Source of the DNA: Candidatus Dadabacteria bacterium
GTDB lineage: Bacteria; Desulfobacterota_D; UBA1144; Nemesobacterales; Nemesobacteraceae
Direction of reading: 5' to 3'
Length of the DNA: 64,000 nt
Assembly (NCBI GenBank): GCA_022827275.1
Contig: JAJDTG010000021.1
Coordinates: forward strand, 21,197-85,196
Part shown: positions 51,545 through 63,966 of the stretch, piece after piece
Layout: every line of letters begins with the position of its first letter
Numbering within the stretch: position 1 is the stretch's first letter
Position numbers and translations under genes: made by a program
Notes under the pieces: model-generated
What the model saw: only the letters and a program-made list of their open reading frames with translations
Told to the model about the DNA's origin: nothing
The model's database searches: none

Positions 51545-52033
51545 TCATACGACTATACCTAAATCTTCGATCATCTCTATGAAATTGACGCAGGAAACTC
51601 CTTCTTCTTTGCATACCAGCGGAATTTTGTAATTCTTCTTTTTTTGGGGCTTTTATTTTTGCTGCCCTTCGAGGGTTACGACAATTTTATTTTCTATTTT
51701 TGCATACGCAATCAACGTGAGATCCTCCTGATCGACCCCTTTGGATTGATCCGTTATCTGATATCTTGCTTCCAGTTCCAGTGAAAGTTTCTTTGTTTCG
51801 TTGTCAATGGGCGTCTTAATAAAATGATTTTCTCCCAACCATATACTTAGGGGGTCTCGTTCCCTGCCTCGTCTTTCTTTCGGGACAATCTGGTCGTAGA
51901 TGGGCTTGATCAAGATAATGTTGTTTTGATGCGGAGCTACTTTTTCCCATAGCGACGGGAAAATATCAAAGGGATAATTTCTGTTCCAGCACTCTATAAA
52001 AATGTTGGCGTCCGTGCAGTATTTTCCGCTCAC
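51545..52033 (-). pseudogene. DUF4411 (PIN-like) toxin gene with in-frame premature TAA; probable GTG start at 52033
   Basis: SGKYCTDANIFIECWNRNYPFDIFPSLWEKVA...VVTLEGQQK* then, in the same frame, KPQKKKNYKIPLVCKEEGVSCVNFIEMIEDLGIVV* (stop at 51545). Confidence 0.82.
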
Positions 52034-53190
52034 AGTTCTTTCTCCAGCCGGAGGGCGTCCGATGCTTTTTTCAGGCCGAACAACCTGCATAATTTGTGAA
52101 GTCCGATTTCATTGCTGTGGTAAGCTTGGAACAGTGCTCTGGTATAAATATGACCGTACTGGTCAAGCACTTCATCCGGCCGGTTCCTGCCAAGAGGGGG
52201 ACTGCTTTCTTTGAGTTGTTTTTTCTGCTGTTCGTAGAGTTCTTGCAGTTCCGACTCAAGATTCTGATAAATGTCGGAACCGATTATTCCTAATTGTTTC
52301 ATCCGAACAAGGCAGGCGTAACTGCTCACCTTAAAAGACTCTGCTATCTTTTTGATATCATTAAGATCGTCTGCGCGCAGCTTCCGGGCGACGGCCCGAA
52401 ATTCTTTTGAAGGCATCAGCACGTTGGCGGCCAACTCGTCGCACCAGATTTCCGCATCCTGATCGCTGTCTCTCCAGTGAGCAATTTCGCTTTTTTTTCT
52501 CAGCAAATGACCTAGTTCGTGAATCAGAGAGAATGTCCGCGCTTTTTTTGCGTCAGAATTGTTGATAATGATGATCGGCAGGGTCGAATGATATATGGCG
52601 AGACCCCGGAACTGTCCCTCATCGACATGAGACCAACCTTTGTACTTGCTTGTGGTGAAAATGAAAATGCTCTTTTCTTCCAGTTTTTCTTTCCATTCCC
52701 GGAAATCGAGGTTCTCCCCCGCACATTTCAGCCAGTCCCGCACGTGCGCTGCGACGACAGGCGCGGGAGCTTCGGATTCCAGCACTGGCGGATTAAACGG
52801 TTCGACCGGTTCGTCCATGTCTTCCCGCAGTTCAAGAACCAGATCGCGTAATCTCTCTACCATGGCGGTTATGCGGCGTATGTCTGAATTGCTGAAAAAT
52901 TCTCCATACTTGTCCCTGAACTTGCGGAAAGAGAAGTTTCTGCTGAACCGGTACTGCTCCGGCAAGGATTCGGAAACGAACACCCATCTAGGTACTTTGT
53001 AAAGCTCGGCAAGGGTATCCAACTGATTAAAGGTAGGCTTATGACCTTCCTGTTCTATGGCAGCAATTTTCCCAACCCTTTTTTTCACATCGGAAAGGCT
53101 AAGACCGATTTGCTCCCGACATTTACGAAGAATTTCTGGATTAACGTTCTCTACTTTTGCCACCATAAGTTCATATCTCTGGCCGCTCAA
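52030..53190 (-). CDS. XRE-HTH + ImmA/IrrE-type zinc metallopeptidase (partner of DUF4411)
   Basis: N-terminal HTH (CREQIGLSLSDVKKRVGKIAAIEQEGHKPTFNQLDTLAELYKVP); FSLIHELGHLLRKKS; GTGA overlap with the DUF4411 gene. Confidence 0.92.
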   Translation of the reverse strand: MSGQRYELMVAKVENVNPEILRKCREQIGLSLSDVKKRVGKIAAIEQEGHKPTFNQLDTLAELYKVPRWVFVSESLPEQYRFSRNFSFRKFRDKYGEFFSNSDIRRITAMVERLRDLVLELREDMDEPVEPFNPPVLESEAPAPVVAAHVRDWLKCAGENLDFREWKEKLEEKSIFIFTTSKYKGWSHVDEGQFRGLAIYHSTLPIIIINNSDAKKARTFSLIHELGHLLRKKSEIAHWRDSDQDAEIWCDELAANVLMPSKEFRAVARKLRADDLNDIKKIAESFKVSSYACLVRMKQLGIIGSDIYQNLESELQELYEQQKKQLKESSPPLGRNRPDEVLDQYGHIYTRALFQAYHSNEIGLHKLCRLFGLKKASDALRLEKEL

Positions 53191-53503
53191 GTACGCAATT
53201 GCGGCAACAGTATTTTTTCCTGATCAAAGCGATCATTAAAAAATAACACGCAGGCAAGGAAAATTGAAGCGATTTCACAGCTCTGTGCGCATGGTAGAGT
53301 CGTTTCCGCTGACTTTAAAGGCATGGAAGCGCTCCGGGACCTGGCGGGAAATGATTTCGTCTGCGGTATCGCATGGGCCATCGGGACGGACAATGCGGGA
53401 AGCGGGAAAATTCGTTGCGTTATCTTGAAGGTGGTATTTTAGCACCGCCTTATTAATCATAAAAGGGATGCGGAATGATTTATGAATGCTATGCTTATGG
53501 CTC

Positions 53504-54610
53504 ATGCGATGGAACTGGCAACGGCCCGAGTGGCCCGATTTTACCTGCGAACCGGAACTTCTCGAGGGTCCAGAGCATGATTTTCTGCGCGAGACAGGCC
53601 TGCTTTTCGGGGTTTACGGGCGTCTTGACGAGTATGAGCGGAACCGGACCAAAGCGGAGATTCTAGGCGAAGAAGCCCTTAAGACTTCCGAGATCGAGGG
53701 GGAGTATCTTGACCATGAGAACTTGCGGTCGTCTCTTTTCCGGCATTTCGGCCTGCAGACGGACGGTCGTAAGGCGAGACCCGCCGAGACCGGTATCACC
53801 GATCTAATGGTCGACCTCTGCGACACTTGCGAAGATGCGCTTTCCCACGAGATGCTTTACCGCTGGCACAGGATGCTCACGCGCGGGCGTACCGACCTCA
53901 AATGCGTGGGCTGTTACCGCGAGCACGGGGTCGCGGTGGTCTCGGGACCTCTTCACAGGCGCAGGATTCATTTCGAAGCGCCTCCCCCGGAGCGGGTAAA
54001 GCGGGAAATGGATGGATTCGTCCACTGGTTTAACCGAAGTGCCCCGGGCGCCGCGGAACCGCTTCCGGCGCTGGCCCGGGCCGGCACGGCGCATCTTTAT
54101 TTCGAGTGCATTCACCCGTTTGAGGACGGAAACGGCCGCATCGGCCGGGCGGTGTCCGAAAAAGCCCTTGCCCAGTCACTCGGCCACCCCACGCTGATTG
54201 CGCTCGCCACCATGATCAGCAGGAACAGGGGCGCTTATTACGGGGCTCTCGGGGAGGCGAACACGGAAACCGAGATAACCGACTGGCTCTCCTATTTCGC
54301 CCGTACCGTGCTTGACGCGCTTGCCTATACGCGGACCTGCGTGGAATTTCTCGTGGAAAAAGCAAGTCTGCTTGAGCGTATGCGGGGAAAAATGAATCCG
54401 CGACAGGAAAAATGCCTGCTTCGGATGTTCAAGCAGGGCCCCGAGGGTTTTACCGGAGGCCTCAGTGCCGAGAACTATATAAGCATCACCGGGGCCGCGC
54501 GTCCGACCGCCGATCGCGACCTTTCGGACCTAGTTGCTAAAGGCGCGCTCGCAAGAACCGGGCAGCGCAAGTCCGCACGCTACCATCTGAATATCGATCT
54601 GCGGGTCTGA
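53504..54610 (+). CDS. Fic family AMPylase (DUF4172-type N-terminus), start probably 53504
   Basis: MRWNWQRPEWPDFTCEPELL; inhibitory-helix motif TSEIEG; HPFEDGNGRIGRAVSEKAL; C-terminal winged-helix-like region. Confidence 0.92.
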   Translation: MRWNWQRPEWPDFTCEPELLEGPEHDFLRETGLLFGVYGRLDEYERNRTKAEILGEEALKTSEIEGEYLDHENLRSSLFRHFGLQTDGRKARPAETGITDLMVDLCDTCEDALSHEMLYRWHRMLTRGRTDLKCVGCYREHGVAVVSGPLHRRRIHFEAPPPERVKREMDGFVHWFNRSAPGAAEPLPALARAGTAHLYFECIHPFEDGNGRIGRAVSEKALAQSLGHPTLIALATMISRNRGAYYGALGEANTETEITDWLSYFARTVLDALAYTRTCVEFLVEKASLLERMRGKMNPRQEKCLLRMFKQGPEGFTGGLSAENYISITGAARPTADRDLSDLVAKGALARTGQRKSARYHLNIDLRV

Positions 54611-54870: not shown

Positions 54871-56136
54871 CTAACTACGGGTGAGCCGACCTATGGCGTC
54901 GCCGATTAGCTTGATGTTGGTTCTGCTGACGTTGTGTTGCCGCGCGAGTGTCTTCCATTCTCCAAGGGCGTCTCGCGTGCTCTCGATGATCTGTGCGATC
55001 GTTTTGTTATCAAGGTTGGCTTTCTTTCCCAGGGCTCTTAGATTTTCAGACGAGGGATCTTTGCCTTCACCGAGCACTGTCGTGCTCTGCTGGCCGCCCG
55101 GGCCGGAAGAAAAAGTAATGTCGTAGGCGGGAGACAGTTTCCACTCGCCTTTAAAATCCATAACAAATGAGAAATTCTTCGCGTGATCATCGCGGTTGTG
55201 AGACATAACGTTAAAAACCGCGTGGCGGTACATTTTTTCGACTTCGCGCATATCGCGGGTCATTATCTCCGTTAACGCAAGCAGGTCTTCATAATCAAGA
55301 GACGGAATGCGGAAGTCCGAATGGAGCAGACCGCCGGCTGTATGGACATGCAGACGGGTCATCCCGCCTTCCGATTCTTTGCGGTCAAATCTCCTGGTGG
55401 TGAAATATCCCGGCCCATTTTTTGCCGGGAAAAGCCGGGTCTCGCTCATAAACACTCCCGCTTCCTTAGCCATAAGAGAGTAAACGTATTCAATGGCGCC
55501 AGCATCCGGGCCGTCTTGGGTGTTCGGGAACTTCACAAGCCAGGGAACGTAGCCCTTTCGTCTCTTATTGTCTTCACCATAGATGATTTGGCTGCCGCTC
55601 GGATTGACGCTGATCATCGCCTTGGGGCGTGCTCCCGCGGAGGACCCGCCCAGCGCCACCAGTTCTTCGAGCACGTCTTCAGCCGAGCCCCTCAGAACCT
55701 GCTCCGTTTTTAACGCCAGATCATCAATGTCAAGAGCATCGGAAGGTCTGTCGCCGCTGAGATCAGGCTCATAAACAAGCGCCCCCATGCCCGAGTGTCC
55801 CACATGGGCCAACCTGTCGAGAGCGGTCAGCTGACTGGGCGCTACCCCCTTTGACCTTGCGAGCCGATCAAGCAGCAGACGACCCCATCCATCGGGAAGA
55901 CTGTCATAAAAAACTCCGGGGAGACCCTCAAACAACATGGGATCAAGCGTCATAAGCCCAGATTCTGGCGGAAGATGCAGCGGCGAAATCCTAAGGCCGC
56001 GAAGAATCGGGGAGTGCTCGAAATATATCTTTTCCCTTTCCGCGGAGGCGAGCCTGCCGACCTGGATAGTAGAGCCTTCTCCGAAATCAAGGCTTACCGT
56101 TATCTGGGAGACGGGAGAGTAGTTCATTCCCGCCAC
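54871..56136 (-). CDS. hipA: HipA-family Ser/Thr kinase toxin
   Basis: GVFYDSLPDGWGRLLLDR, GGSSAGARPKAMIS, FTTRRFDR, MSHNRDDHAKNFSF, LSPAYDITFS. Confidence 0.93.
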   Translation of the reverse strand: MAGMNYSPVSQITVSLDFGEGSTIQVGRLASAEREKIYFEHSPILRGLRISPLHLPPESGLMTLDPMLFEGLPGVFYDSLPDGWGRLLLDRLARSKGVAPSQLTALDRLAHVGHSGMGALVYEPDLSGDRPSDALDIDDLALKTEQVLRGSAEDVLEELVALGGSSAGARPKAMISVNPSGSQIIYGEDNKRRKGYVPWLVKFPNTQDGPDAGAIEYVYSLMAKEAGVFMSETRLFPAKNGPGYFTTRRFDRKESEGGMTRLHVHTAGGLLHSDFRIPSLDYEDLLALTEIMTRDMREVEKMYRHAVFNVMSHNRDDHAKNFSFVMDFKGEWKLSPAYDITFSSGPGGQQSTTVLGEGKDPSSENLRALGKKANLDNKTIAQIIESTRDALGEWKTLARQHNVSRTNIKLIGDAIGRLTRS

Positions 56137-56435
56137 CCCTTCTTGCGGGGCGGTTTTTTCCTCTCCGCCTCAAGCACTTCGTCAATGGATGAGTACGTGC
56201 GGGCTGGCGGTTCGGTTGCCCCCACCACATCCTCAAGCGCGTCAAGAACCATGGCGATCTTAAGGAACGACTCAAGGGAGATAATTCCTTTCTGCTCGAA
56301 TTTCCGCAGGGTCGCGAGACTTACCCCCGAGCGTTTTGCCAAGCCCTGCTGCGTGAGCCCCGTGGCAAGGCGTCGGTTACGCATGTTCTCGGCAATTGCT
56401 CCCTGTGCTTTCGAGACTGTAAAGAATAATACCAT
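56124..56435 (-). CDS. hipB: HipB-like XRE antitoxin
   Basis: RLATGLTQQGLAKRSGVSLATLRKFEQKGIISLESFLKIAMVLDAL; overlaps hipA start. Confidence 0.88.
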   Translation of the reverse strand: MVLFFTVSKAQGAIAENMRNRRLATGLTQQGLAKRSGVSLATLRKFEQKGIISLESFLKIAMVLDALEDVVGATEPPARTYSSIDEVLEAERKKPPRKKGWRE

Positions 56436-56465
56436 GATATTAGTAGTAATTCTTTAAACTGATTG

Positions 56466-56485
56466 ACTAATATTATAATATTAGT
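56466..56485. promoter_or_regulatory. 20-bp perfect palindrome, candidate HipB operator
   Basis: ACTAATATTATAATATTAGT, about 30 bp upstream of hipB start at 56435; related half-site ATATTAGT at 56438-56445. Confidence 0.6.
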
Positions 56486-56918
56486 TTTGCTGCTTTTCAA
56501 ATGTTGGTTTTATAGGATCTCCAGGCAATTAAGACTATCTCAATTTCGCAATACAATCCGCCTTAAGCAGGACATGTCTTGTATCTATATCCTGACTTCC
56601 TGTTGGGTATTCATCACGGCGCTTGACCGAGAGTTAGTCCATGGAAGAAGCGTTAACCAAGCCGGGCAGCAAAGCCCGCAACGAGCGTGACGCACTTCCT
56701 GTCATGAAGTCCATTAGCATTGCTACGAAAGTTTGGTCCGAGACGGGGTAGGCATCATAACAAAATTCTAGTACTTACTGGTTTTGTCAAAAAACAAAGC
56801 TGGTGTACCTTATTCCCTTTCGTTTTTCTAATTCTAAAAGTTCAAGATACTGGTGATGTTAGGTAGCTGATGTAAGAAACAGGCTGACTATAAAGATTAA
56901 GACTGCGAGTAGATCAAG

Positions 56919-59900
56919 ATGACCGATTCCTTTTCTCCTGAAATCTTAATTCACGCCGAAATCGCGACAAAACTGAATTTTGCGGCTTACCAAAGTTCAT
57001 TTCCTTTGCTGCGGGATCTCAAAATCGAAAACACCGACTCCGGCAAGCACCTCGACAATCTTACCGTTAAGTTTCGCACCGACCCCCCTTTCGCAGGAGA
57101 AAAAACATGGAGAATAGATCGGGTTGCACCGCGGGAAATGGTGCTGGTAGAGGATATTGATCTCGGTGTTAGCAGTGAATTCCTGTCAAACCTTACCGAA
57201 TCTGTCCGCGGGTCGGTCTTGTTTCAGGTTGAAAAAGACGGATTAATCCTTGGCGAACTCTCAAAACCCATTGAACTGCTCGCATATAACGAGTGGGGCG
57301 GAGCCGGATTCATGCCGGAACTGCTTGCGGCATTTTCCACGCCGAACGACCCCTCGGTTGACAGAATTATCCGAAACGCGAGTGAAATACTGAGCCGGGC
57401 GGGGAAGGGAGCTCAAATTGACGGTTACGAATCCCGTAGCCGTGAGCGCGTGTGGGAAATTGCATCGGCCATCTACACTGCTATTGCCAATCTTAGTCTT
57501 TCCTATTCTGTTGCCCCCGCCAGCTTCGAGAGAAACGGGCAGAAAATCCGTCTTCCAAACCAGATTCTCAGTGCGGGGGTCGCTAATTGCTTGGATGCTT
57601 CTATGTTGTTTGCCTCGGCGCTTGAACAGGCAGGATTAAATCCCATGGTTGCCTTGCTTGAAGGCCATGCGATGGTCGGCGTCTGGCTTCAGCCTGAGGA
57701 ACTTTCCGATGTGTTTATAGAAGAAGCGGAAACACTTAGGAAGTCTGTTGACCTGAAAGAATTGCTGCTTATTGAAACGACATTTGTTGCAACTTCCCCA
57801 ATTCCCTCTTTCTCCATTGCCGTTTCCACTGCCAGAGAGACAATAGCTCCCGACCATGATGATACGTTCATCGTCGCGGTTGATGTTCACCGGGCACGGG
57901 CGCATAAAATCACTCCTCTCGGAATGGGAACAGAGGGCCTGGAGAGAAGAGACGGCCCCGCCCGGGCCACTTCACAAATAGAATTTGAGAGAGCGCCGCA
58001 ACTTCCCGATTTTGATATTGCAGGCTTGGAGGAGGAAGAAAAGCCCGAAACGCCCAGAGGACGACTCGAGCGTTGGCAAAGACGTCTTCTCGATCTTTCG
58101 CTCAGAAATCCCCTGCTAAATCATCGTTCAACAAAATCGAGCATCCAGATTGTCTGTCCGAGCCCGGGTCTACTTGAGGACAAGCTTGCCGACGGAGCCC
58201 GGATACGTATTGATCCCGTTCCCGAAACTCTTAAAGAAAACGGCAAAGCCGCAGTCCCGGAACAGTACGCCCTTGAGGAACTTGAGAAAAACCGGGTACT
58301 CGTTGATCTTTCAAAAGAAGATATTGACAAACGTACCGTCCAAATCTACCGCAGGACTCAGACTTCTCTTCAGGAAGGGGGTGCCAACACTCTTTACCTT
58401 GCTCTGGGATTTTTGCTCTGGAGAAGGAGTGAAAAAGACGGTCGTCGCTTTCGTGCTCCACTGATTCTTCTACCCGTTACGCTGGAGAGGAAATCCGTCC
58501 GAAGCGGAATCCGCATGCTCTCTCATGACGACGAAACGCGTTTTAACACGACTCTTCTCAGGATGTTGCACTCTGACTTTTCAATCGATATCGGGGGGCT
58601 TGACGGTGAATTGCCCCAAGATCAAAGTGGCGTCGACGTAAATAGCGTATGGGACCGGGTCCGCAGGGAAGTAAAGGATATGCCCGGATTTGAGGTTGTC
58701 GAGGATGTGTGCTTGGGTCACTTTTCCTTCTCCAAATATCTCATGTGGAAGGATCTTGTTGATCGTACCGATGCACTTCGTCAGAACTATGTGGTACAGC
58801 ACCTGATAGACACGCCGAACACTCCGTTTTCTTCTGGAATCAGTTTTGTCGAACCCTCTCGCCTTGACCGGGACTACGAACCTTCGGACCTGCTGACCGC
58901 CCTACCTGCCGACTCTTCCCAAGTGTCTGCGATCGCAACAGCAGAGAAAGGAAAGAATTTTATTATCATAGGTCCTCCCGGCACCGGAAAAAGCCAGACG
59001 ATTGCTAACATGATTACGCACTTCTTGGGAAAAAAGAAAACCGTACTTTTCGTTTCCGAAAAGACTGCCGCTCTGGAAGCTGTATATCGAAGATTGAAGA
59101 ACATAGGACTCGGTGATTTCTGCCTCGAACTCCATTCCAACAAGGCTAAAAAAGCCGAAGTATTGGAACAGTTGCAAAAGACTATGGATTTAAGTTGCGA
59201 CTCTCCGGGAAACTGGCGGCAGAAGGCCGACGATCTTAAAAAGCTTCGTAGTTCCCTCAACCTGTTTGCCGAACGGCTGCACATGGAACGCCGAAACGGT
59301 TTGACTCTTCATCGCGCGATGGGAGCAAGTTTGCGGGACCGGGAACTCGTGAAACGCGTCAGCTTCTCGTGGCCCTCGGCTGAGTATCATGACCGAAGCG
59401 CTCTTGAGCAGATGCGGAAGAGCGTTGAGAATCTGGCGGTTCGGGCGCGGGAGATTGACGGGATAGCTTCAGATGTCTTTGACCTTGTAAAGAAATCCGA
59501 GTGGTCTCCTCGGTGGGAAGCTGATGTCGTGCAGCAGGCTCAGGAGTTGTCCGAGGCTGCTGCGGCTGCGGAAGCTGCCCGTCATGCCCTTTGCGAGGCG
59601 GTTGGCATAGATCTGCCCGGCAACTCGGTCTCACGCCTCGAAACACTTGGAGAATTTGCGGTTCTGCTTACCGATTCTCATAAAGAACAAAACGCTCGTT
59701 TCGTCGGAACCGAAGGCCAAGGGCTTATAGAGGATATTAAGGAAGCGATCTTGAGGCTGAAAGCTTATTCCGAACATAAATCCGCTTTGAGTTGTCCCTA
59801 CAAGTCGTTTGCGTGGAGAGAACTTGATGGGGAGGAGATAGAGATGCTCTGGAAAGATGCCGGAGCAGCGTGGTGGCCGAAGAGCTTTTTTCTGCGCCGG

Positions 59901-62105
59901 AACGTAGTGAAGAAAATGCGTTTGAAAGGTGCTGAGGGAACACCCGACCCCGGCCGTGACTCAAAGACTCTGGTACTGCTTCGCATTGAGGGAGAAGCCA
60001 TTGACCGGCTAGATAACCGACTTTGTGAATTCGAAAGCTGGCGCGGGCACGAGAGCGAGCCGGAGATGCTTGAGCGGCTTTATCGTTTCGGTGAACGCAC
60101 GTGCGCTGTAATTGGCAGTATGGTTGAGGGTGCACAAGCCCCGGTGCGTATCCGCGTGGATATCGAGACATTGCTTCGCGATGGAAACGACCTCTTGGCC
60201 GCTGATGCCAAGGTCGGACGGGCGAGCGGGGCTTTTATCGGCGCCGTCGAACATCTGCGAAAAATGGACAGCGAGTTTAAATCTTTGGCGGGGTCGTCGG
60301 TGCTTGAGACTGTAGCGTCTTCGGATCACGCTCTTGAGAAGGTGGCGAAAATCGCGGGTACCATTGCTCGCTCCCGCGACGAACTTCGCGCTTGGTGCGC
60401 TTGGCGCGAAAGCAGAGACGAAGCCGTAAAAATGGATCTCACGGCCCTTGTGGAGGCATTTGAGCGCAAGCATATAAATGTCTCGGATATGGAAAGAACA
60501 TTTGAAGCGGCTTACTGCCACTGGTGGACCGAGACGGTTATTGGAGAAGATGAGATGCTCCGCAAGTTTTCAAGAGCCGAACACGAGGCGAAAATAAGAA
60601 AATTTTGCGAGATCGACGACGATTTCCAGAGAACTACCGCACGATATGTTGCGGCGGAACTTGCGGGTTTGGTGTCTCAACGCAGGGACAACAAAAAGAG
60701 TTCTCAGTGGGGTGTGCTCCAGCGCGAGTTCCAGAAGAAGATGCGTCACAAACCCATTCGTCAGCTAATTAAAGAAGCCTCCGAAGCGGTTTCGACCTTG
60801 GCTCCCTGTTTCATGATGTCGCCGCTTTCTGTTGCTCAGTACCTGTCACCTGAACAGGCACTGTTCGATATCGTCATATTTGACGAGGCTTCCCAGATTC
60901 CGGTCTGGGACGCCATCGGTTCGATAGCCCGAGGGCGTCAGGTGGTCATTACCGGTGACCCGAAACAGATGCCGCCCACGAACTTCTTTAACCGTTCCGA
61001 GGATGATCCCGACGGGGATATCGACACGGATGGAGACCTTGAGAGCATCCTTGATGAAATGCTTGCGGCTGGAATTCCAGATCAGGGACTTAATCTTCAC
61101 TACAGGTCGCGAAAGGAAGGGCTTATCGCGTTTTCAAACAAGCATTACTACGAGAACAGGCTTATCACTTTTCCCGATCCCAACGTTTCCCAAAGTGGTG
61201 TGAGCCTTATTCGGCCCGACGGTTTCTACGCTCGTGGCGGAGCTCGTCACAACGAAGGAGAAGCAAAGGCGATCGTAGAGAATATCGTAAAACGTCTGAC
61301 CGACGAGGATCCTGTCGTCCGCGAGCTCTCAATAGGGGTGGTGACATTTAATTCCGAACAGCAGAATTTGATCAGCAATCTCCTTGATGTCGCACGTTCG
61401 GAGAGGCCTGAGATAGAATGGGCCTTTTCAGATGAGCAAGTCGTTGAACCTGTATTTGTCAAAAACCTCGAAACGGTGCAGGGAGATGAGCGCGACGTGA
61501 TAATGTTCAGCGTTACCTATGGGCCGGATCAGGGCGGTTACGTCTCGATGAATTTCGGTCCTCTTAACCGTGAGGGAGGAGAAAGACGCCTGAATGTGGC
61601 ACTGACTCGGTCTCGCCACGAAATGATCATATTTTCCACCATGCATCCCGACCAAATTGATCTTTCTCGCACACAGGCGCACGCCGTAAGAGATCTTAAG
61701 CATTTTCTGGAATACGCGGAGAGAGGACCACGGGCTTTGGGATCTCAAATCTTGGGTTCGCAGGGAGATTTTGAGTCGCCTTTTGAAGCGGTCGTGGCCT
61801 CTGAACTCAGAACAAAAGGGTGGCAGGTGATACCGCAGGTGGGTGTTTCTGCTTATCGGATTGATTTGGGTGTGGTGCATCCTGATAAACCCGGGTGCTA
61901 CCTTGTGGGAATTGAATGTGATGGAGCAATGTATCACAGCTCTGCTTTTGCCCGTGAGAGGGACAAGATCCGCCAGTCTGTGCTTGAAGGACTGGGATGG
62001 AAGATTCTTCGGATATGGTCGACGGAATGGTGGCTGAGCAAATCCAGGGAGCTTAAAAGAATAGATGATAATCTGCGACATTTGCTCGAACAGGAAAGAC
62101 AATAA
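56919..62105 (+). CDS. Large SF1 helicase (DUF4011-type) with N-terminal transglutaminase-like region and C-terminal Vsr/MTES_1575-like nuclease
   Basis: 1728 aa; [38 protein letters not shown]...[117 protein letters not shown]...[12 protein letters not shown]...[10 protein letters not shown]. Confidence 0.88.
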   Translation: [1728 protein letters not shown]

Positions 62106-62281: not shown

Positions 62282-62701
62282 ATGAAATGGCAATCCCTGA
62301 TCTCAGCCCAGAATCTCAAGCTTGCATGGCGACGAATCAATACGGGTCAGAATTTTCAATACAAACGATTTTTTCGCCAAGCCTACCTAGTTTATGAGGG
62401 TGCCGTTGATAAACACATAAAACAACTTCATGATGACTTAAAAGCAAAAGCGTGGGAACCTAGCTGCGCGACGAAGTTGTATATCCCCAAGCCGTCCGGC
62501 CTGCACCGCCCCATATCTCTTCTTGGTATTGAGGATCAGATCCTACTACAAGCTATCGCCAATTTGTTTGCTCGGAACTTATATGAAAAACGGCGAAAAG
62601 TGGAGTTAAAGACGGTATTCAGCAATAAATTATCAAGTTCAAAGGACGATAACGCTTTAAATCTTTCGCAAATTAAAAAAGGAGGCGGCATTTCCTGGTA
62701 A
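62282..62701 (+). pseudogene. N-terminal fragment of a reverse transcriptase, lost before the catalytic YxDD
   Basis: KLYIPKPSGLHRPISLLGIEDQILLQAIANLFARNLYEKRRKVELKTVFSNKLSSSKDD then unrelated sequence at the IS boundary. Confidence 0.75.
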
Positions 62702-62754: not shown

Positions 62755-63966
62755 ATGGAAGATTGTACAGCAAAGAGCCCCAAAAAGGTAATTCAGATTA
62801 ACCACGAGGAGTTGCGGGATCACCTGAGCTCCCTTGTCACCAACACGGTAGAGGAAGTGCTCAACAAGGTTCTGGACTCTGAAGCAGAGGAGATGGTAGG
62901 GGCGGCTCGGTATGAACGCAGCGCCAGTCGCCAGGACTACCGTTGCGGAAGCTACACGAGGAAACTTCAGACCAAGGCAGGGGAAGTTGAGCTTAACATA
63001 CCCAAGCTTAGGGAACAGAAGTTCCAGACGGCCGTAATAGAGAGATACAGAAGAAGGGAGTCATCCGTGGAAGAAGCCCTGGTGGAGATGTACCTGGCGG
63101 GAGTGTCCACGCGTCGGGTGGCCGATATCACCGAGGCGCTTTGGGACACCCGGGTGAGTTCTGCCACGGTATCGAAGCTCAACCAGAGCGTGTACGAGCA
63201 CATAGAGAAGTGGCGTAACAGGCCCATAGAGGGGGAGTATCCCTATGTTTACCTTGACGGGGTGAGTTTGAAACGCAGCTGGGGAGGCACGGTGGGCAAT
63301 GTATCGGTATTGATAGCAATAGGGGTTGGCACAGACGGTTATCGCAGGGTTCTGGGGGTTGTGGAGGGGGCTAAGGAGGACAAGAGTGGATGGGGAGGGT
63401 TTCTGCGCCACCTTAAGCAAAGGGGGCTTGGGGGAGTAAGGATGTTCGTAAGCGACGCGTGTGTGGGTTTGGTGGAGAGTATAAGGGATTTCTATCCGGA
63501 GGCTCTTTGGCAGCGCTGCGTGGTTCATTTCTACAGAAACGTTTTCAGTTACGTGCCCAGGGGAAGGGTGAGGGAGGTGAGTTTGATGTTAAAGGCGATA
63601 CATGCTTCTGAGAACAGGGAGGCTGCCAGGGCAAAGGCCAGGGAGGTTGTGAAGAGGCTCAAGGAGATGAGATTGGCTTCGGCGGCCAGGTGTGTGGAGG
63701 AGAACATAGAAGAGACGCTGTGCTACTATGAGTTTCCGTCCTCGCACTGGCGAAGGTTGCGTACGAACAATCCTATGGAGAGGATAATAAAGGAGATAAG
63801 GAGGAGATCCCGGGTGGTGGGGGCTTTCCCTGACGGGCAGAGCGCGCTGATGTTGTGCGCGGCGAGGTTAAGGCATATATCTGGGACAAAGTGGGGAAGC
63901 AGAAGGTATCTGGACATGGGTTTGTTAAGGGAAATGGACAGAAAGGAAGTAGTTGAGGTAGGGTAA
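62755..63966 (+). mobile_element. IS256-family (mutator) transposase, 403 aa, intact
   Basis: YERSASRQDYRCGSYTRKLQTKAGEVELNIPKLREQKFQTAVIERYRRRESSVEEALVEMYLAGVSTRRVADITEALW...YVYLDGVSLKR...VSDACVGLVESIRDFYPEALWQRCVVHFYRN...RTNNPMERIIKEIRRRSRVVGAFPD. Confidence 0.95.

Follow-up and report, generated by a model that had tools for sequence, protein, structure and literature searches.

The window analysed here, a 64,000-nucleotide stretch of DNA from a Candidatus Dadabacteria genome, contains on its forward strand a gene (56919..62105) for a 1728-aa protein of the ProA type, in which a putative protease, a helicase and a nuclease are combined. The reading frame runs uninterrupted from an ATG at 56919 to a stop codon at 62105, and the NCBIfam model NF058533 matches residues 20–1727 of its product with 1987.5 bits. 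The frame is genuine, as it matches the Pfam domains DUF4011 (E 9.8e-50) and MTES_1575 (E 4e-35) and has 67 full-length homologues. Considering that the frame is open, that these homologues exist and that every motif is intact, an artefact or a pseudogene was ruled out.

No Pfam domain was matched by the first 388 residues of the window protein, and this part was therefore described from structural models and from the homologues. Residues about 8–122 (56940..57284, forward strand, as are all features of the gene) form a β-sandwich-like domain that is built mainly of strands in an AlphaFold model of residues 1–385, where most of it reaches a pLDDT >95; Ig-like β-sandwiches were found among the PDB neighbours of that model. 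Residues 125–340 (57291..57938) follow as a core resembling transglutaminase-like (TGase) cysteine peptidases, assigned from the AlphaFold model, its PDB neighbours and Pfam matches of the homologues. The predicted nucleophile, Cys224 (57588..57590), opens a helix at core residue 100; the predicted catalytic His250 (57666..57668) opens a strand at core residue 126; and Glu286 (57774..57776), predicted to complete the triad as its acidic residue, comes directly after strand 158–161 of the core model. An earlier reading made from the letters alone (hereafter the sequence-only reading) had proposed the same Cys and His at exactly these positions. It had also recognised the acidic residue as Glu, at about 57773–57775, one base off.

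Downstream of the core, the DUF4011 domain (PF13195) occupies residues 389–550 (58083..58568). The SF1 helicase begins with the first part of domain 1A (residues 661–760, 58899..59198; AAA_19 at 668–713), which holds the Walker A motif GPPGTGKS (residues 685–692, 58971–58994), and resumes at residues 1235–1573 (60621..61637), where the C-terminal part of AAA_11 (1235–1354) and AAA_12 (1376–1573) were matched and where DIVIFDEAS, the Walker B motif, begins (residue 1317, from 60867). The chain ends with a Vsr-like PD-(D/E)xK nuclease domain of the MTES_1575 family (PF18741; residues 1622–1719, 61782..62075), whose motif IECDG lies at residues 1665–1669 (61911–61925). When the coordinates were recomputed, both Walker motifs fell where the sequence-only reading had located them, and its estimate of about 600 aa between Walker A and Walker B agrees with the 632 residues counted. 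Most of this distance is taken up by an insert of about 470 aa without a Pfam match (residues 761–1230, 59199..60608), the length of which varies from 448 to 479 aa among homologues. Apart from several conserved Trp positions, the insert is among the less conserved parts of the protein, and the suggestion that it might hold a further domain gained nothing from Pfam or from conservation; an extra enzymatic domain is unsupported by the sequence.

In the window the gene is part of an island: HipBA, Fic and a PIN/M78 pair are found on one side of it, and a reverse transcriptase fragment and an IS256 element on the other. A HipB-like HTH gene (56124–56435; HTH_3 E 2.7e-8) and a HipA-type kinase gene (54871–56136; HipA_C E 6.8e-45), both on the reverse strand, precede it. 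Beyond them, 53486–54610 encodes a Fic protein with a DUF4172 N-terminus, which matches PADLOC SoFic with an E of 1.2e-39. Still farther upstream, at 51653–53190, a DUF4411 PIN-like gene overlaps a gene for an HTH and M78 (IrrE-like) peptidase protein in what looks like a toxin–antitoxin pair; this pair adjoins a XerC-like recombinase gene and an HslV-like gene. About 450 bp (56460–56918) between HipB and the ProA gene carry no called gene, and a 38-bp piece of this interval has an 84% identical counterpart close to the beginning of contig C12, so that mobile-element remnants may lie in the interval. On the 3′ side, an N-terminal fragment of a UG19-class (DRT-type) reverse transcriptase (62282..62701, forward strand; PADLOC RT_UG19 E 4.6e-43, profile positions 2–119 of 562) is interrupted by an IS256 transposase gene (62755–63966). 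Because the transposase gene lies at the contig end, the remainder of the reverse transcriptase falls outside the contig. No Rfam RNA was found around the ProA gene.

Conservation and fold of the N-terminal core

Bacterial and archaeal genomes were scanned for relatives, and from the 372 found, 79 distinct loci were retained; 67 of these encode full-length homologues, mostly 36–60% identical and spread over several phyla. All counts out of 68 given here refer to these 67 sequences plus the window protein. In the alignment of this set, Cys224 and His250 were kept in 68/68 sequences and Glu286 in 67/68, the single substitution being an Asp in a Chthonomonas MAG sequence that is also the most divergent full-length member. 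Asp226, Gly254, Trp256 and Thr288 were likewise invariant. The Cys-His-Glu triad, conserved from Actinomycetota to Pseudomonadota, showed the same degree of conservation as the motifs of Walker A and the nuclease: the Walker A motif and the FDEASQ of Walker B were present in 68/68 sequences, as were Glu1666 and Asp1668 of the nuclease, and Asp1649 was present in 67/68. All three predicted active sites, namely C224/H250/E286, Walker A with Walker B, and the nuclease D-ExD, are thus invariant or nearly so together. Full-length coverage was the criterion by which these homologues were chosen. That the TGase domain is universal among them is therefore partly a product of selection, and the set cannot tell how often the domain is lost. 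The sequence-only reading had made its proposal depend on the conservation of the Cys, His and Glu in homologues, and the alignment shows the triad kept.

To what fold does this triad belong? The window core taken alone stayed under the Pfam Transglut_core cut-off (14.6 versus 23 bits). Among the 68 members, 24 matched Pfam DUF553 (best E 1.9e-4) and 17 matched Transglut_core (best E 5.2e-4). A profile–profile alignment with TGases from related genomes placed Cys on Cys and His on His, with an E of 0.003 and a reported probability of only 10%. The AlphaFold model was of high confidence, with a pLDDT of 92.7 for residues 1–385 and 94.7 for the core (125–340), and the topology of the core was typical of the family, with the Cys at the start of a helix, the His starting a later strand and the Glu right after the next strand. 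The order Cys, His, acid is also that of the transglutaminase-like superfamily, with Glu rather than Asp as the acid.

Matches of the 1–385 model to TG2 were set aside as TGase evidence, because the β-sandwich could itself match the Ig-like domains of TG2; owing to this ambiguity, a separate model of the core was built and used for the search. Its PDB neighbours were mostly proteins of the TGase or a related fold, including the pseudomurein endoisopeptidases PeiP and PeiW, PNGase, TgpA and LapG, and further neighbours were putative cysteine proteases, Rad4/XPC, arylamine N-acetyltransferases and menin. The top two matches were trypanosomatid flagella proteins. The structural matches to TGases were modest (best E 9.5e-4, TM about 0.25–0.38), and the fold is assigned because the list of neighbours is so uniform, not because of the E-values. 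Conservation, the Pfam matches of homologues, the profile–profile alignment and the AlphaFold model with its PDB neighbours together support the sequence-only reading of a TGase-like Cys-His-Glu domain joined to a DUF4011/SF1 helicase and a Vsr-like nuclease, and we conclude that the N-terminal core is a predicted TGase-like cysteine-peptidase domain.

Family membership, the C-terminal region and mobility

The score of 1987.5 bits exceeds the curated cut-off of 1500 for NF058533, an equivalog model named "anti-phage protein ProA". The match starts at residue 20 and covers profile positions 1–1711, spanning the TGase core, DUF4011, the helicase and the nuclease. The Hhe family (NF042953 / PADLOC Hhe), which has the DUF4011-helicase-nuclease body in common with the window protein and matches it best over residues 1109–1723, was excluded, as the score of 825.5 bits is far from the cut-off of 2000. 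The PADLOC candidate PDC-S37, for which no curated cut-off is given, matched residues 381–1726 with 1183 bits (profile positions 8–1345 of 1550); its profile begins at DUF4011 and leaves the TGase domain outside.

Anantharaman et al. described in 2013 giant proteins with HEPN, a transglutaminase-like peptidase, an SF1 helicase, a Vsr-family REase and wHTH domains, which occur without modification genes. In their proposal, the TGase domain adds another line of defence by cleaving proteins, and the C-terminal wHTH domains recognise invading DNA (PMC3710099). The window protein carries the TGase, the SF1 helicase and the MTES_1575 Vsr domain on one chain as do these giants (MTES_1575 and its relatives), and a plasmid-borne relative from Microbacterium, the genus of MTES_1575, has an identical C...H...IETT motif. 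It differs from them in that no HEPN domain was matched by Pfam, a β-rich N-terminus being found in the AlphaFold model instead, and in that the DUF3320 wHTH is absent. Judged by its sequence, the window protein is a ProA-family member with a domain combination known since 2013, without the wHTH. The idea of the sequence-only reading is therefore correct but was already published in outline (PMC3710099), and its description of the system as under-described was too strong, given that NF058533 names the family and that both the architecture and the protein-cleavage proposal date from 2013. The present analysis adds the conservation of the triad across phyla, the apparent repeated loss of DUF3320, the lack of a conserved partner and the mobility of the gene.

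Most homologues carry about 200 extra residues with DUF3320, the wHTH region, which corresponds to about positions 1712–1903 of the NF058533 profile; the window protein ends at position 1711 of 1903. DUF3320 is absent from the window protein and from 12 other members, and no remnant of it was found 3′ of the stop codon in another frame in any of these 13 genes. Two of the other short members were checked (L020 and L114) and both exceeded the NF058533 cut-off, so that membership of the family does not require DUF3320, the one part of the profile that the window protein lacks. In a quick tree of the helicase-nuclease body, with SH-aLRT support only, the absence of DUF3320 requires 7 changes, at least 5 of which (gains or losses) are forced by well-supported branches. 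The presence of DUF3320 thus appears to have changed repeatedly, loss being the simplest explanation, and on account of this repeated loss the wHTH looks dispensable. Its recurrent absence speaks against the 2013 proposal that the wHTH recognises invading DNA (PMC3710099).

Within the phylum of the window genome, the ProA cut-off was exceeded in 1 of 58 genomes, namely the window genome itself. The helicase-nuclease-body tree mixes phyla, and the window sequence groups with one gammaproteobacterial and one Gemmatimonadota sequence, which points to horizontal transfer. Plasmid-borne relatives were also found (70 records with one place covering at least 80% of the query), including conjugative Klebsiella plasmids. 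Combined with the occurrence in a single genome of the phylum, carriage on conjugative plasmids indicates that the ProA gene is mobile. The Klebsiella plasmid copy had no close DNA relatives in complete E. coli genomes. Other genomes of the phylum encode four more distantly related DUF4011 helicase-nucleases without a detectable TGase-domain match (L081–L084), which are about 30–44% identical to the window protein in parts of the helicase body; one of them (L084) is in pieces.

We also examined 65 loci for genes recurring beside the ProA family and found none. The commonest neighbour family, an N6 DNA methylase, was present at 9 loci only, and a partner gene was rejected on this ground; 611 of the 692 neighbour clusters were singletons, and a PADLOC scan of 118 immediate neighbours revealed no dominant family and none that occurred in more than two. 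The lack of a conserved partner gene makes the system look like a single-gene one. Type I R-M genes were the commonest recognisable defence neighbours (11/65 loci), which, without a matched background, is no more than suggestive as a sign of defence.

Proposed action of the protein and alternatives

We consider that the window protein probably defends against phage on its own, as a single-gene system of the ProA family, in which the helicase and the nuclease would act on DNA and the TGase-like domain on protein. SF1 helicases and PD-(D/E)xK nucleases have established functions on DNA, and it is from these functions and from the invariant motifs that we predict the attack on DNA. The SF1 helicase would engage incoming or replicating phage DNA and travel along it, and the C-terminal Vsr-like domain, the active site of which is intact and nearly invariant, would nick or degrade that DNA. 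We would guess that DNA engagement alters the chain such that the N-terminal Cys-His-Glu domain, presented by the β-sandwich, is switched on. Judging from its fold and conservation, this domain may then act as a cysteine peptidase or acyltransferase; its target, which could be ProA itself or a protein of the phage or the host, is a matter of conjecture. A more specific version, which we put forward tentatively, is that ProA works as a protease triggered by DNA: the helicase-nuclease would serve as sensor and first strike, the Cys-His-Glu domain would then cleave one particular protein of the host or the phage, and the wHTH would be an optional accessory. If true, ProA would combine attacks on DNA and on protein in a single chain.

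A considerably less likely alternative is that the TGase-like domain is an autoprocessing or regulatory protease, which cuts its own linker (residues 341–388) and so frees the helicase-nuclease upon infection, instead of acting on another protein. The linker is short, is of low confidence in the AlphaFold model and is the least conserved part of the protein (mean majority fraction 0.46), and the freed part would resemble L081, a TGase-less helicase-nuclease that starts right at DUF4011 and occurs alone. The variability of the linker, however, speaks against this, since conservation would be expected at a self-cleavage site. It is unlikely that the domain is a binding module that helps the helicase to recognise phage DNA, on the model of Rad4/XPC, a DNA-binding protein that includes a non-catalytic domain of the TGase fold: Rad4/XPC structures are indeed among the PDB neighbours of the core and the rest of the chain is wholly DNA-directed, but if the domain served for binding alone, some members should have lost triad residues, whereas Cys and His are kept throughout and the acid everywhere save for one conservative Asp, the motif being found in an actinomycete too. 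Finally, a housekeeping helicase-nuclease for DNA repair, and not for defence, is very improbable. Repair is a conceivable role for an SF1 helicase joined to a Vsr-like nuclease, and many members lie among unrelated genes, but the patchy occurrence within the phylum, the phylum-mixing tree, the carriage on plasmids and the name of the NCBIfam equivalog all argue against it.

A search of the literature retrieved no paper that settles what the protease domain of ProA does. Neither the invariance of the triad nor the absence of DUF3320 changes the overall picture of bacterial immunity. Returning to the proposed anti-phage protein that would act on both DNA and protein, the invariant Cys-His-Glu triad yields a clean set of mutants for the peptidase-like domain, the helicase and the nuclease: C224A, K691A and D1668A.
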